A stretch of 46,422 nt of DNA. Source: Smithella sp. GTDB taxonomy: Bacteria > Desulfobacterota > Syntrophia > Syntrophales > Smithellaceae. The notes beneath the pieces were generated by a model, which had not been told where the DNA came from, did not search any database, and saw nothing but the letters and a program-made list of their open reading frames with translations. The position numbers and the translations under genes are program-made. Every line of letters starts with the position of its first letter. Within the stretch, counting starts at the first letter, position 1. Of this stretch, positions 14,926 through 23,295 are shown piece after piece. The stretch spans positions 1 through 46,422 of the forward strand of contig JAAZHX010000247.1 in assembly GCA_012510495.1 (NCBI GenBank). Direction: 5' to 3'.

Positions 14926-15399
14926 TTGGATATTTTCGTTCGATACTGCGGCGGTTGCAACTGTCAGATCGACAGGGTGCGGATCATCAAAGCCATTGAA
15001 AATTCGCTCGGGGCAGGCTGCAGGCTGACAACGGATGCGTCGCATGCGCCTTTCGGAGCAGGCATTTTGATGTGCGGCTGTCCGTCCGCCTGTGTGAACA
15101 AACCGGAGATCACCGATCTTGCGCGGAACTGGATCGTGATTGCGGGCAAGACTCTGGATTTCCGGGAAATGCCGGAAACGGAGCTGGCCGGGGCGGTCGG
15201 GGCCAGAATAAGCGAAATGGCAACGCATGACCGGGGCTGCCTCAGGGAAACCAAAGCTCTTTCCCATAAAGGGCTCAACGAAGACCTCGACGGTGCGATG
15301 CGGATTCAGGAAGGGCTCTTCAGGACCTACATCGGATCGGAAGACAACCACCAGCGCATCGACGCGCTGCAGGCGAAGCTGGCGGCGAGGAAGAAGTAG
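14926..15399 (+). CDS. CGGC-motif cysteine protein with an enoyl-CoA-hydratase-like tail
   Basis: The 157-residue frame has two unlike parts. Residues 1-97 carry RYCGGCNCQIDR near the start and MCGCPSACVN in the middle, then IVIAGKTLDF; this resembles a small uncharacterised family with a CGGCNxxIDR motif, usually about 100-110 residues, that may bind metal. Residues about 104-157 (ETKALSHKGLNEDLDGAM, then GLFRTYIGSEDNHQ) look like the last 50 residues of an enoyl-CoA hydratase, where a [GT/S]ED segment precedes a terminal helix. The start is TTG 14926 with GGAG upstream. The join could be a natural fusion or a deletion junction. Confidence 0.6.
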   Translation: MDIFVRYCGGCNCQIDRVRIIKAIENSLGAGCRLTTDASHAPFGAGILMCGCPSACVNKPEITDLARNWIVIAGKTLDFREMPETELAGAVGARISEMATHDRGCLRETKALSHKGLNEDLDGAMRIQEGLFRTYIGSEDNHQRIDALQAKLAARKK

Positions 15400-15730: not shown

Positions 15731-16480
15731 ATGGCTGATCGTGCACGACCCAAAACTCGTAAGGACCGAATAATGGATACGGCTTTGCGCATTTTTGCGG
15801 AAAAGAGTTTTCAGGAGGCGACGATATCCGAAATCAGTAAAAAGGCGGGTGTTTCCGAGGCCACGATTTATGAATATTTCGGCACCAAGGAGGATCTGCT
15901 GTTTGCCATACCCGAAAAAATCTCCAATGATGCCAATGAAGATTCTGAAGCCGTCCTTCCTTACATCAAGGATGCGGAAGGCCGGATGCGCGCCATCCTG
16001 TTCAGCTATATTCAGCTCTACGAGAGCAATCCACACTATTCCGCGCTGGTGCTGCTGCAGTTAATGTCCAGCAAGCGTTTCCGACAGACCGCCGCGCATG
16101 CGGCCATCCGCCGTTCCGCCCACCGCCTGCTCGAATGCATCCGCGAAGGCATCGCCGACGGAACATTCCGCTCCGACGCCGACGCCTACCTGATTCGTTC
16201 AATGCTGATGGGCACTATCGAACATCTGTTCATCCACTGGCATATGCAGGGAATGCCCAAACGCGACAAAACCATTATGGAGATGCTGGATCCGTTTCTG
16301 GAAATCGTTTTGAGCGGTATCCGGGCAAGAAAAGAACAGCAGGGACTCACGCTGCGTTTGAATCTGGAGGACGCGCGTGTCCTGGAACAGATTCTACAAA
16401 ATGATCCGATGTTACAATCTCCGGCCCGGAGCGCGGACGCCGCCCGGACAACGAAGGAAAAAACTAAACAACATCTATGA
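15731..16480 (+). CDS. TetR-family transcriptional regulator
   Basis: The 249-residue protein has the TetR N-terminal DNA-binding domain at about residues 10-58: RKDRIMDTALRIFAEKSF, then ISEISKKAGVSEATIYEYFGTKEDLL with the family helix-turn-helix. The C-terminal ligand domain is helical and unassigned; TetR repressors near acyl-CoA genes often sense acyl-CoA or an aromatic acid. AGAAGGAG lies seven bases before the ATG. The gene ends 18 bp before the dehydratase-like gene, so it is probably the first gene of the operon and autoregulated through the palindromes upstream. Confidence 0.9.
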   Translation: MADRARPKTRKDRIMDTALRIFAEKSFQEATISEISKKAGVSEATIYEYFGTKEDLLFAIPEKISNDANEDSEAVLPYIKDAEGRMRAILFSYIQLYESNPHYSALVLLQLMSSKRFRQTAAHAAIRRSAHRLLECIREGIADGTFRSDADAYLIRSMLMGTIEHLFIHWHMQGMPKRDKTIMEMLDPFLEIVLSGIRARKEQQGLTLRLNLEDARVLEQILQNDPMLQSPARSADAARTTKEKTKQHL

Positions 16481-16498: not shown

Positions 16499-18016
16499 AT
16501 GAGAACCAAGCAGGATTTTATTAACGCGCTGTCGAAAATGAAACGCAATATCTATTATGACGGACAATTGATTGATCGGACGGACGAGCTGCAGAGCGAC
16601 TGCATCAATGTGATGGGCACGACCTATGACGAGGCGGCCAAACCGGAGAACGAAGAGCTGATGACCGCCACGTCTCACCTGACCGGAGAGAAGATCAACC
16701 GTTTCACGCATATTCACCAGAACACGGTTGACCTGCACTGCAAGCAGGACATGACCCGCATGCTCTGCCAGAAGGTAGGCGGCTGCATTCAGCGCTGCAT
16801 GGGCATTGACGGCACCAACGCCATTTACAACGTATCGTTCGAGGCGGACAAGGTGAAGCCGGGCGAAACGAACTACCACGATAATTTCAAGAAATGGCTG
16901 ACCCGCTTCCAGAAGGAAGATATGATTGCCGCCTGCGCCCAGACGGATACCAAAGGCGACCGCCTGCTGCGCCCCGCCGAACAGCACGATCCAAGCGCCT
17001 ACGTCCGCATTAAGGAAAGAACCAAGGACGGCATCGTCGTGGAGGGCTGCAAGCTGCATATTTCGGAAGCTTCCGTTTCCGATGAAGTGCTGGTCATTCC
17101 CACCCGCGCGCTTCGTCCCGAAGACAAGGACTACGCGGTGGCGTTTGCCGTGCCCGCGGACTATGACGGCATGAAGCAGGTGGTGACCATTCATAATTAC
17201 CGCCAGCGTGAACATTTTAAACGGGGATTCACGCCGGGGCTGACCGATTCCTATCTGCTTTTTGAGGACTGTTTCGTGCCCTGGGAGAGAGTTTTCCTGG
17301 CCGGTGAGAATCTGCACGGCGGGATCCTGGCGCTGCTCTTTGCTCTGTTCCACCGTCATTCCTATTCGGGCTGTAAGCCCGCCATCGGCGATGTTATCCT
17401 GGGCGCCGCGGCGCTGGCCGCCGAAGTGAACAACATCCACAAGCAGCCCCATGTCCGCGAGAAGCTGTCCGAACTGATCATGACGATCGAGCTGGGCTAT
17501 GCGGCCGGTTATACCGCCTCCGATCTGGGCAAACCGGAAGTCTATATCCCCGGGATGGGTTTTGTTCCGTTTGGTCCCGGATCCTACATTCCTCATTCCA
17601 TTTACTGCAACGTGGGACGCTGTCTGTCGGGCGAGGCGGTCTGGCGCGAGGCGGAGATTCTGTGCGATATCGCGGGCGGCGTCGTTGCGACATTCCCGCA
17701 CGAGAAAGATTTCACTAATCCGGCCACCGGTGAAGCGCTTTTAAAATACACCAAGCGCAATCCGAAAATGTCCGCTGAGGATCAGGCGCAGTTCTGGCGC
17801 TATCTCGGCGATGCGATGTGTTCGGCCACCGGCGGCATTGCCAATGTCGGCAACTACCACGGCGGCGGCTCCCCCATTATGGAGCAGATTGCCATCACGA
17901 CGCAGTATGATATTGAATCCCGCAAGAAGCTGGTGAAATACATCGCCGGCATGAGCGGCGGCGACCGCGAAGCGTTGGCCAAAATCAACTTCATCAACAA
18001 GCCGATCGATAAGTAA
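16499..18016 (+). CDS. 4-hydroxybutyryl-CoA dehydratase / vinylacetyl-CoA isomerase family protein
   Basis: The 505-residue flavoprotein belongs to the family of AbfD, whose FAD and [4Fe-4S] cluster drive a radical-type dehydration of 4-hydroxybutyryl-CoA to crotonyl-CoA. The cluster ligands Cys99, Cys103, His292 and Cys299 of the Clostridium aminobutyricum enzyme have counterparts with the same spacing: Cys96 and Cys100 in GGCIQRCMG, and His285 and Cys292 in HRHSYSGCK. Tyr289 and Lys293 match its active-site Tyr296 and Lys300. However, no acidic residue occurs between Asp438 and Glu462, around the HGGGS motif where AbfD has Glu455, and the position of Glu257 appears to be Asp250. The family is firm; the exact substrate may differ. 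Residue comparison was made from memory. Confidence 0.85.
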   Translation: MRTKQDFINALSKMKRNIYYDGQLIDRTDELQSDCINVMGTTYDEAAKPENEELMTATSHLTGEKINRFTHIHQNTVDLHCKQDMTRMLCQKVGGCIQRCMGIDGTNAIYNVSFEADKVKPGETNYHDNFKKWLTRFQKEDMIAACAQTDTKGDRLLRPAEQHDPSAYVRIKERTKDGIVVEGCKLHISEASVSDEVLVIPTRALRPEDKDYAVAFAVPADYDGMKQVVTIHNYRQREHFKRGFTPGLTDSYLLFEDCFVPWERVFLAGENLHGGILALLFALFHRHSYSGCKPAIGDVILGAAALAAEVNNIHKQPHVREKLSELIMTIELGYAAGYTASDLGKPEVYIPGMGFVPFGPGSYIPHSIYCNVGRCLSGEAVWREAEILCDIAGGVVATFPHEKDFTNPATGEALLKYTKRNPKMSAEDQAQFWRYLGDAMCSATGGIANVGNYHGGGSPIMEQIAITTQYDIESRKKLVKYIAGMSGGDREALAKINFINKPIDK

Positions 18017-18135: not shown

Positions 18136-18933
18136 ATGTTTGATCTGAATCAATTTTTATTGAAGGATAAAGTTGCGCTCGTCACCGGCGGCGGTCGCGG
18201 CATCGGCCAGGGAATCGCTTACGGTTTTGCCAAGGCAGGCGCAAAGGTTGCCATCACCAGCCGTAAAGAGAAGGATCTCGAGGCGACCGCCTGTGCGATG
18301 GATGAAGTGGGCTGCGAAACGATGGTGGTTCCCGCTCACCTGGGCAGGCTCGACGAAATCCAGCGTGTGGTGGACGCAGTGGTTCAGAAGTTCGGCAGGA
18401 TCGATATTCTGGTCAACAATGCCGGCGCCAGCCCTGCCATGGCTTCCGTGCTGGATTCCGACGAACGCCTCTGGGATACCATCATGAATCTGAATCTTAA
18501 AGCCGTTTACTTCATGAGCCAGGCTTGCGCGAAAATCATGAAAAATCAGGGCGGCGGCAAGATCATCAATGTGGCCTCGATTGACGGCGTCAATCCGGAG
18601 CCGTTTGTCAGCGTGTATTCGACCTCCAAGGCCGGCGTCCGCCAGATCACGCGCGCGTTTGCCATGGAACTGGTCCGTGACAACATCATGGTCAACACGA
18701 TTCTGCCCGGTCCGATCAGCACCAAGATGATGAATTCACACTGGGTCCATCTTCCCCCGGAGGAAGCAGCCAGGCAGAAAGAGGAATTGTGCAAGCACCT
18801 GCCCACCTGCCGGATCGGTGAACCGGACGAAATCGCCGGAGCGGCGATTTATCTGGCATCCGACGCATCGAGCTATACCACGGGCGCGGAGATCATTATC
18901 GACGGTGGTCTGCTTTTGGGCGCGCATTTGTAA
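18136..18933 (+). CDS. Short-chain dehydrogenase/reductase of the TetR cluster
   Basis: A 265-residue classical SDR: TGGGRGIGQG cofactor loop, an ITSRKEKD segment whose Arg-Lys after the second strand suggests NADP(H), NNAG, catalytic Ser in VASIDG and YSTSK. The C-terminal IYLASDASSYTTGAEIIIDGG is typical of 3-oxoacyl reductase-like members. It follows the dehydratase-like gene by 119 bp with a strong AGGAGAAGG site and precedes the FadH-like gene, so an acyl-CoA thioester with a 3-hydroxy or keto group is a reasonable substrate; this is inferred from context only. Confidence 0.85.
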   Translation: MFDLNQFLLKDKVALVTGGGRGIGQGIAYGFAKAGAKVAITSRKEKDLEATACAMDEVGCETMVVPAHLGRLDEIQRVVDAVVQKFGRIDILVNNAGASPAMASVLDSDERLWDTIMNLNLKAVYFMSQACAKIMKNQGGGKIINVASIDGVNPEPFVSVYSTSKAGVRQITRAFAMELVRDNIMVNTILPGPISTKMMNSHWVHLPPEEAARQKEELCKHLPTCRIGEPDEIAGAAIYLASDASSYTTGAEIIIDGGLLLGAHL

Positions 18934-19029: not shown

Positions 19030-20988
19030 ATGAAAACCCTTGAGCATTTGTTGTCGCCCATCAAAGTTCGCTCCCTGAAAATTCCGAACCGCCTGGTCCT
19101 GCCGCCGATGGGAACGGCGCTCGGCAATGCCGACAGCACCGTCAGCGAAGCGAACCTGGCCTATATCAAACGAAGGGCGGAAAGCGGCGCCGGACTCATC
19201 ATCACCGAGATCACGGAGGTGCATCCGCTGGGATCCGCCTCCCCGCGATGCATCGGCGTCTGGGATGACAAGTTTATTCCCGGCCTGAGCAAGCTTGCCG
19301 ATGTGGTGCATGCCCAGGGAAGCAAAATCGCCATGCAGCTTCATCATACGGGCCGCGAGAACTACCTGCTGCAGAAGAAAAACAAGGCTCTCGCGCCTTC
19401 GGCCATCCCCAGTTATATCTTCGGTTTTCTCGGAACGCCTCGCGAGATGACGCTTGCCGAGGTCGAGGAAACCATTGTTGCTTTCGGCAGCGCTGCCCTG
19501 CGGGCCCGCAAGGCGGGATTTGACGCCGTCGAGCTTCATGGCGCACACGGTTATCTTCTCATGCAGTTTCTTTCGGCGCTCAGCAATCAGCGCAAGGATC
19601 AGTACGGAGGCGATTTTCGCGGACGGGCCCGCTTTATGATCGAATGCCTCAGGGAAGTCCGCCGTCAGGTCGGCACGGATTTTCCCGTTTCCATCCGGAT
19701 CTCCGGCGAAGAGTGCATCAGGGACGGCTACACGATCTCCGACATGGAGACCATCATTCCCGATCTGGTGACGGCCGGCGCGGACCTCATCAATGTTTCC
19801 TTCGGCACGCACGGCTCCCCGGCCGTGAACATCGACACCCCGAACCCGAGCGCGCCGGTTGAATACACCCCCGGCTTCAAGTCCCATCTGTCGCGCAGGG
19901 TGAAAGAGGCGGCGGGCGTTCCGGTGATTTCCGTCGGGCGCTACACTGATCCTTACTTTATGGATGAAGTCATCGCCCGCGGCGATGCGGACATGATCGC
20001 TGTGGCGCGTCAGCATCTGGCCGACCCGGATTTCCTCAAAAACGCTCTGGCCGGTCATCCCGAGGACACGCTGGAATGCCTGGCCTGCAATCAGGGGTGC
20101 ATTGAGCGTCTTTCTCTGGAAGCGCTGCCGATTCGCTGCGCCATCAATCCGCAAACCGGTCAGGAACTGATGTATCCGGCTGGTCCGGCGTCTGTTCTCC
20201 GCAAGGTCTGGGTGGTCGGCGGCGGGCCGGCTGGACTGACCGCCGCTCACGAGGCCGCGCGCCTCGGTCATCAGGTAACCCTCTTTGAGCAGGAAAACCA
20301 GACGGGCGGAAATGTCCGCTATGCCGCCAAAGCGCCCCACAAAGAGGTTTATGGCCGGTACATCAGGACCCTCACGGCCAGGTGCCAGAGGCAAGGCGTG
20401 GATATCCAAACCGGCGTCGAAGTTACCGAGGCGATGATTGAAGCGGGCAAACCGGACGCCGTCATTCTGGCGATCGGCGCCGGCAAAGCCGATTGCCCGG
20501 CTGAAGGCATTGACGCACCCGTGGTTTGTGACGCCTGGCAGATTCTGGACGGGACCGTGGTGCCGAAAGAGCCGGTGGTGGTCATCGGCGGCGGGCTGGT
20601 GGGCATGGAAACAGCCGATTTTCTGCTGGAGAAAGGCGTGCGGAATATCACGATCGTGGAGATGCTGCCCGCTTCCCCCGTTCTGGCGCTGGCCGCGCAC
20701 GGCTACATGCTGCACAAGCGCCTTCGGGCAGCCGGAATTGCCCTGATGCTGGGCGCCCGGGTGAAAAAAATAGAAGAAAACGCGGTGACGGTTGAAGTCG
20801 GGGGAGAAGAAAAGAGATTGGAACCGGTTGCGCAGGTGATTGTGGCCATCGGTGTTACGCCCCGCACGTCGCTTAAGGAAATGCTTTCGAAACACGGCAT
20901 CCGTCATTTTGTCGTAGGCGACGCTTCCGCGCCGCGAAGGATCATCGAAGCGACGACGGAGGGGGCGAAAGCGGCCTGGGAGATATAA
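19030..20988 (+). CDS. FadH-like NADH:flavin oxidoreductase with Fe-S cluster (2,4-dienoyl-CoA reductase/enoate reductase family)
   Basis: The 652-residue protein has the three-part plan of 2,4-dienoyl-CoA reductase. Residues 1-340 form an old-yellow-enzyme TIM barrel binding FMN (NRLVLPPMGTALG, ELHGAHGYLLMQFLS). Cys350, Cys353, Cys357 and Cys370 give the C-x2-C-x3-C-x12-C [4Fe-4S] site. The remainder has FAD and NAD(P) dinucleotide folds (VVGGGPAGLTAAHEA near 396 and VVIGGGLVGMETADFL near 517). Such enzymes pass electrons from NAD(P)H through FAD and the cluster to FMN and reduce conjugated C=C bonds of acyl-CoAs or acids. AAAGGAG precedes the ATG. It is the last intact gene of the TetR cluster. 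Confidence 0.9.
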   Translation: MKTLEHLLSPIKVRSLKIPNRLVLPPMGTALGNADSTVSEANLAYIKRRAESGAGLIITEITEVHPLGSASPRCIGVWDDKFIPGLSKLADVVHAQGSKIAMQLHHTGRENYLLQKKNKALAPSAIPSYIFGFLGTPREMTLAEVEETIVAFGSAALRARKAGFDAVELHGAHGYLLMQFLSALSNQRKDQYGGDFRGRARFMIECLREVRRQVGTDFPVSIRISGEECIRDGYTISDMETIIPDLVTAGADLINVSFGTHGSPAVNIDTPNPSAPVEYTPGFKSHLSRRVKEAAGVPVISVGRYTDPYFMDEVIARGDADMIAVARQHLADPDFLKNALAGHPEDTLECLACNQGCIERLSLEALPIRCAINPQTGQELMYPAGPASVLRKVWVVGGGPAGLTAAHEAARLGHQVTLFEQENQTGGNVRYAAKAPHKEVYGRYIRTLTARCQRQGVDIQTGVEVTEAMIEAGKPDAVILAIGAGKADCPAEGIDAPVVCDAWQILDGTVVPKEPVVVIGGGLVGMETADFLLEKGVRNITIVEMLPASPVLALAAHGYMLHKRLRAAGIALMLGARVKKIEENAVTVEVGGEEKRLEPVAQVIVAIGVTPRTSLKEMLSKHGIRHFVVGDASAPRRIIEATTEGAKAAWEI

Positions 20989-23219: not shown

Positions 23220-23295
23220 GCCGATGTAGCTCAGCTGGCAGAGCAACTGATTCGTAATCAGTAGGTCGACGGTTCAAATCCGCCCATCGGCTCCA
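23220..23295 (+). tRNA. tRNA-Thr (anticodon CGU)
   Basis: A 76-base cloverleaf: acceptor GCCGATG with CATCGGC, D-arm GCTCAGCTGGCAGAGC, anticodon stem CTGAT/ATCAG with loop TTCGTAA, T-arm GGTTCAAATCC, discriminator T and an encoded CCA (23293-23295). The CGU anticodon reads ACG (threonine). Confidence 0.96.

Follow-up and report, generated by a model that had tools for sequence, protein, structure and literature searches.

What does a relative of 4-hydroxybutyryl-CoA dehydratase (AbfD) do when the glutamate on which the current AbfD model leans is missing? The question is raised by a gene of Smithella sp. in a window of 46,422 nucleotides, the whole stretch of DNA analysed (assembly GCA_012510495.1, contig JAAZHX010000247.1). 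In AbfD, radical chemistry is known to begin with no help from SAM, B12 or ATP. Tyr296 is deprotonated by Glu455 and then reduces FAD, and Glu257 protonates via Thr190 in a proton relay. No description of AbfD relatives without Glu455 was found in a literature search that covered mainly titles and the openings of abstracts, mostly of open-access papers.

The relevant features of the window are:
14926..15399, + strand, small Cys-rich protein with the motif YCGGCN..DR ... CGC..AC...KP
15731..16480, + strand, TetR-type regulator immediately preceding the AbfD-family gene, resembling FadR (91 bits; NCBIfam FadR cut-off 200)
16499..18016, + strand, AbfD-family gene (the query), 505 aa, ATG start
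18136..18933, + strand, short-chain dehydrogenase/reductase (SDR), directly downstream of the query
19030..20988, + strand, old-yellow-enzyme (OYE)/FadH-type reductase with Oxidored_FMN and Pyr_redox_2
23220-23292, + strand, tRNA gene (Rfam RF00005)

A genuine gene of the AbfD family

The open reading frame at 16499-18016 is a genuine gene. Its ATG is preceded by a purine-rich run resembling a ribosome-binding site, and 18 bases separate it from the TetR gene. The gene and its clade are under purifying selection, with a dN/dS of 0.035-0.058 (NG86) against five relatives 86-96% identical, the ratios being rough in the three of five pairs in which dS exceeds 1.

By phmmer the query groups with the AbfD structures 1u8v (E 9.7e-85) and 6vjr, and the Pfam families HpaB_N and HpaB both score above cut-off. 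Identity is about 37% to 1u8v and 38% to one true AbfD of the genus. The AbfD/HpaB fold is predicted: an AlphaFold2 model with 48 relatives as input (mean pLDDT 92.2) has 1u8v as its top PDB match, first among 541 (TM 0.88/0.91).

Active-site residues

Positions were mapped by alignment to AbfD 1u8v and are given as AbfD-query. The four [4Fe-4S] ligands are retained (C99-C96, C103-C100, H292-H285, C299-C292), as are Y296-Y289 and K300-K293, and every one of these residues had been named correctly in an earlier sequence-only reading of the locus. Three positions are replaced (T190-S189, E257-D250, E455-G451). The Thr190/Glu257 pair of AbfD is absent and the conservative Ser189 and Asp250 stand in its place, where that reading had put them. 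Its suggestion that the glutamate is lost at the 455 position is borne out by the alignment, which places Gly451 there. Its further statement that no Asp or Glu lies between 438 and 462 stands with the two ends excluded and falls with them included, residue 438 being Asp and residue 462 Glu. Glu462 is located 11 residues past Gly451, behind the HGGGS turn, and aligns with Gln466 of AbfD. Other replacements, from AbfD to query, are R375 to E379, R382 to E386 and E286 to L279, and the query carries an insert around 350-360.

A clade without Glu455

The family set comprised 151 distinct proteins of at least 430 residues, from 148 sequences (the fetched loci and the window), and two references, giving 153 rows scored at nine AbfD positions (C99, C103, T190, E257, H292, Y296, C299, K300, E455). 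The pattern of the query, C,C,S,D,H,Y,C,K,G, occurs in 103 rows and that of AbfD in 33; one further AbfD-type row has a gap at C299/K300 and the other 16 carry different patterns.

Residue states were then counted in a clade set of 105 distinct sequences at least 59% identical to the query (itself included) and in 34 AbfD-type rows (references included), the rows of both sets being related and the counts not independent. All 105 clade sequences have the four ligands, Tyr, Lys and Asp250; Ser189 and Gly451 are each present in 104, the exception at the 455 position being Ala. Thr190, Glu257 and Glu455, by which the AbfD-type rows were chosen, are 34/34 there by construction. Of the five non-ligand positions compared in the active site, three thus differ from AbfD throughout the clade. 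The clade has also gained fixed residues: Glu462 (105/105, versus Gln466 in 34/34 AbfD-type rows), Asp195 (105/105, versus His196 in 34/34), His287 (105/105, versus Gln294 in 31/34), Glu379 (105/105, versus Arg375 in 34/34) and Glu384. Glu190 is nearly fixed (103/105, versus Gly191 in 34/34).

In a tree of 53 rows, rooted at the midpoint, with a single distant HpaB row as outgroup and several branches that are long, the query falls outside the AbfD clade. Its own clade of 25 rows (support 100/100) lies within a larger branch of 33 rows (100/99), apart from an AbfD side of 18 rows that holds 1u8v and 6vjr (100/97). The tree thus places the query in a distinct sister clade of AbfD. Ligands are kept throughout the 33-row branch, whose rows have Gly or Ala at the 455 position apart from a single Asp. 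This position varies on the AbfD side too: Glu455 is found in 15 of 18 rows, and the other three have Ser or Gly. The cluster ligands are indeed kept, as the sequence-only reading held, and residue states shared by 104-105 of 105 sequences show that the pattern is more than chance. The "divergent paralogue" of that reading proves to be a whole clade of 105 distinct sequences instead of a single oddity.

The clade has records from Thermodesulfobacteriota, 15 from Chloroflexota and three from Actinomycetota. Most are MAGs, in which single odd placements may reflect contamination. The 16 rows labelled Myxococcota are all titled plain "Deltaproteobacteria bacterium", and that phylum is therefore not counted.

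A further sister clade, with Thr-Asp-Ala at positions 190, 257 and 455, comprises seven rows at about 43-45% identity. All seven carry Glu462, Asp195 and His287, and so do L131 and L132. At the 462 position, His or Gln stands in four further rows that lack Glu455 (the L117-L120 types), so Glu462 may be no more than a marker of its branch. L117, L119, L118 and L120 represent other AbfD-family branches, with patterns C,C,T,C,H,H,C,K,S and C,C,S,T,H,C,C,K,G, in which Tyr296 is replaced by His or Cys. At L134:5989-11370 and L137:5950-13189, a Thr-Asp-Ala relative, an AbfD-type gene, an SDR and a thiolase share one cluster.

Coexistence with true AbfD

Among the 20 genomes of the genus, 19 have a true AbfD with 89% identity or more to the L105 copy, full or nearly full length in 13 and as partial pieces in six. 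In the source genome of the window, a 39-residue N-terminal AbfD piece is located at a contig end (35/39 identical to the L105 copy) and adjoins an acetyl-CoA hydrolase/transferase-family gene; counting this genome, true AbfD is traceable in 20/20. The query clade occurs in 19/20, some members being contig-end pieces, and no member was found in G002, which is 69% complete. The query is therefore a second enzyme, and the idea that it stands in for AbfD was rejected. This agrees with the earlier suggestion of another substrate, which we grade as probable. A sample of 198 genomes of the phylum has the clade in 27 (E up to 1e-150), AbfD-type genes in 43 (E up to 1e-170, at least 53% identity to the L105 copy) and both in 23. 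Clade and AbfD-type genes share one locus in nine of 80 genome_contigs loci. The L105 copy (L105:5998-7452) has a thiolase-cluster gene directly upstream, as in L102.

Gene neighbourhood

The neighbours were surveyed with our own gene calls for 95 clade copies and 31 AbfD-type copies, denominators being the copies for which a position was available. The TetR cluster of the window is directly upstream in 25/87 clade copies, its SDR cluster directly downstream in 35/88 and the OYE cluster two genes downstream in 14/82. Within four genes on the same strand, an SDR accompanies 43/95 clade and 15/31 AbfD-type copies, and an OYE 18/95 and 2/31, respectively. SDR company is thus not special to the clade, being about as common beside AbfD-type genes. 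The best NCBIfam match of the OYE-type reductase of the window is BaiCD (509.5 bits, cut-off 825).

Judged by their representatives, other neighbour clusters include alpha/beta hydrolase, thiolase, long acyl-CoA dehydrogenase, enoyl-CoA hydratase, isochorismatase, FadD ligase, a FabK-like NMO protein and a ferredoxin-type protein. Gene orders are, for example, CaiB-CaiB-FadD-TetR-query-ECH-HADH-FadE-HADH-type in L124, methylmalonyl-CoA mutase-MeaB-epimerase-carboxylase-FadD-query-thiolase-thiolase-ACAD in L123, and thiolase-OB-ECH-ACAD (by cluster)-FadD-OYE-amidohydrolase-two unnamed-query-FAD oxidase in L035. The company of the clade is of the beta-oxidation type, with a recurring flavin ene-reductase. 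The SDR and FadH-like reductase noted earlier are both present downstream, and the acyl-CoA setting proposed with them is upheld by the FadR-like regulator, SDR and OYE here and by thiolase, acyl-CoA dehydrogenase and ligase elsewhere. Some clade copies stand in other settings, which this picture does not fit, and because neighbourhoods vary it is unsure whether one substrate serves the whole clade.

Possible function of the clade

The query is a real, well-conserved variant within a known enzyme family, not a new kind of enzyme. The reading that we prefer, tentatively and at somewhat below an even chance, is that it carries FAD and a [4Fe-4S] cluster and catalyses AbfD-like radical dehydration or isomerisation of a 4-hydroxyacyl- or enoyl-CoA (3- or 2-enoyl) other than 4-hydroxybutyryl-CoA. 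It draws on the predicted fold, on the ligands and the Tyr/Lys pair, on replacements fixed throughout a clade under purifying selection, on the presence of true AbfD alongside and on the acyl-CoA neighbours. The chemistry would be flavin-cluster radical gamma-dehydration with a double-bond shift, as in AbfD; Asp250 and Ser189 would form the proton relay to the flavin. The substrate is probably larger or C4-substituted, because the side chain of Glu has become that of Gly. The SDR would interconvert oxo and hydroxy forms, and the OYE-type reductase would take out an extra double bond ahead of thiolysis.

The AbfD variant E455Q is reported to lack measurable activity, a point against radical dehydration in an enzyme that has no Glu455. 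In the clade, the loss of Glu455 is accompanied by the fixed gains Glu462, Asp195, His287, Glu379 and Glu384, and loss of radical dehydration does not follow from it. A different carboxylate could take the role of Glu455, and Glu462 is the leading candidate. The acid may then have shifted from 455 to 466 (AbfD numbering) instead of vanishing, and we would guess that Glu462 lies near the active site. His287 is a possible replacement base; it probably points away, because in the predicted helix it is two residues from both His285 and Tyr289.

The main rival explanation, which the sequence-only reading had also offered and which we consider unlikely, is that the enzyme acts as an isomerase only. 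Without Glu455 the radical start from Tyr to flavin would fail; the enzyme would shift the double bond of an unsaturated acyl-CoA from delta3 to delta2 and, with the OYE-type reductase, supply beta-oxidation. The glycine at the 455 position in 104/105 sequences is consistent with this, as are the OYE/FadH-like neighbour, the acyl-CoA dehydrogenase, thiolase and ligase genes nearby and the vinylacetyl-CoA delta-isomerase activity of AbfD itself, named in the title of Scherf and Buckel 1993. However, ligands, Tyr and Lys invariant in 105/105 are hard to explain for mere proton transfer. We give rather less credit to the idea that the AbfD scaffold has been reused for some other redox or lyase chemistry, with for instance a 3-hydroxy, 4-oxo or ring-containing acyl-CoA as substrate. 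The many fixed replacements besides Glu455, the insert and the varied gene settings would suit such a change, whereas the core cluster and radical residues are kept and the neighbours resemble ordinary beta-oxidation.

That the query is an ordinary 4-hydroxybutyryl-CoA dehydratase tolerating the changes seems improbable. It would account for the identity to the true AbfD of the genus and for the shared predicted fold, but not for the clade-wide differences at three of five positions or for true AbfD in the same genomes and sometimes at the same locus. Least credible is a decaying or inactive paralogue: a residue thought to be catalytic is lost, but the low dN/dS, residues fixed in 105 distinct sequences and a clade missing only from an incomplete genome of the genus speak against it, and a pseudogene was rejected on dN/dS and conservation. 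A natural clade with another fixed residue set offers a ready-made test of the Glu455-based AbfD model, and an AbfD-like annotation match is no proof of 4-hydroxybutyrate metabolism.

The six-carbon propionate route of Smithella

In the Smithella route, C2 of one propionate condenses on the carboxyl of another, a methyl group is rearranged, oxygen is transferred to C3 and 3-ketohexanoate is cleaved (PMC10180298, in excerpt). The available part of the 2017 genome paper reports no information on the genetics of this route (PMC5606693). A 4-hydroxyacyl-CoA dehydratase together with a hydratase would shift the oxygen from C4 to C3. A candidate for the methyl rearrangement is encoded in the source genome:
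G000:C306 (L153:425-2107), + strand, split B12-dependent acyl-CoA mutase (relatives in L182-L196)

MeaB and adenosyltransferase genes adjoin it, and its best PDB match is the 2-hydroxyisobutyryl-CoA mutase 4r3u. The Arg207-like site is Gln (QNDMLKEFIAQK) in 15/15 fetched mutase flanks, whereas the source genome's own methylmalonyl-CoA mutase has Arg; the Tyr89-like site of its split mutase copy is Phe. Phe/Gln in acyl-CoA mutases marks non-carboxylate substrates, and the C306 mutase probably acts on one. Of the 20 genomes of the genus, 17 contain a full-length relative (at least 85%, own copy included) and one more contains pieces; none was found in G002 and G003, which are 68-69% complete.

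The genus therefore has AbfD and a putative non-carboxylate B12 mutase, both types needed by a carbonyl-shifting C6 route. Two propionyl-CoA could condense to 2-methyl-3-oxovaleryl-CoA; reduction and the Phe/Gln-type mutase would give 4-hydroxyhexanoyl-CoA, an AbfD-family enzyme 2-hexenoyl-CoA, and hydration, oxidation and thiolysis acetyl-CoA and butyryl-CoA. It is a long shot that two things hold together: that the clade consists of radical 4-hydroxyacyl-CoA dehydratases whose acid has shifted from 455 to 466, and that the query or true AbfD performs the oxygen shift of the route. True AbfD seems a somewhat better candidate than the query, because it keeps the known dehydratase residues and has the thiolase (by cluster) directly upstream in L102 and L105; presence does not decide (20/20 versus 19/20 genomes). 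Gene maps of the fetched flanks show no AbfD-family gene beside a C306-type mutase in the genus. The link between mutase and AbfD is loose, since mutase relatives occur in 113/198 sampled genomes (selected on E value alone, up to 1e-175, a looser cut-off) and G025 has a close mutase copy (80%) and no AbfD-family match in its genome. A B12-domain motif scan of the loci around the query clade gave one match, in L123; this mutase, of the carboxylate (Arg) type and within a methylmalonyl-CoA gene set, was rejected as support for the route.

A small Cys-rich protein

The small Cys-rich protein upstream matched no Pfam family. Its relatives (many weak, E up to 1e-5) occur at 34 places in 33 of the 198 genomes. 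At the E-value cut-offs given above, an AbfD-family gene is present in 32 of these 33, versus 47/198 overall (Fisher p 2.7e-24, kinship not corrected). At 23 of the 34 places one is no more than 3 kb away, and the two genes are often direct neighbours. At the other 11 no AbfD-family gene was found within the fetched stretch; four of them are less than 1 kb from a relative of the C306-type mutase. In L005 the protein is fused to an enoyl-CoA hydratase, and in L221 and L226, of another family, a 3-hydroxyacyl-CoA dehydrogenase-like gene, a small Cys protein and a related mutase follow in succession. No relative turned up in the 15 mutase flanks fetched for the genus. The AbfD-family company of its relatives suggests that the protein may belong to the system of the query.

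Comparison with known systems

HpaB-type flavin monooxygenases (2yyg; NCBIfam TIGR02309) resemble the query in fold, in Pfam HpaB_N and HpaB and in a D-E-V-L stretch. However, both N-terminal Cys ligands are missing from the aligned HpaB row, and the query scores 128.9 against TIGR02309 (cut-off 480.2) and 50.2 against TIGR02310 (cut-off 885.2); an HpaB-type oxygenase was rejected on these grounds. The Thr-Asp-Ala sister clade shares the ligands, Tyr, Lys, Asp250, Glu462, Asp195 and His287 with the query and differs in keeping Thr190, in Ala at the 455 position and in Gln or Met at query position 190. AbfD (1u8v; 6vjr, from Nitrosopumilus maritimus) shares fold, length, the Cys-Cys-His-Cys ligands, Tyr296, Lys300 and an acyl-CoA gene setting. 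The query departs from it in Glu455 to Gly, Glu257 to Asp and Thr190 to Ser and in the fixed replacements Gln466 to Glu, His196 to Asp, Gln294 to His, Glu286 to Leu and Arg375 to Glu.
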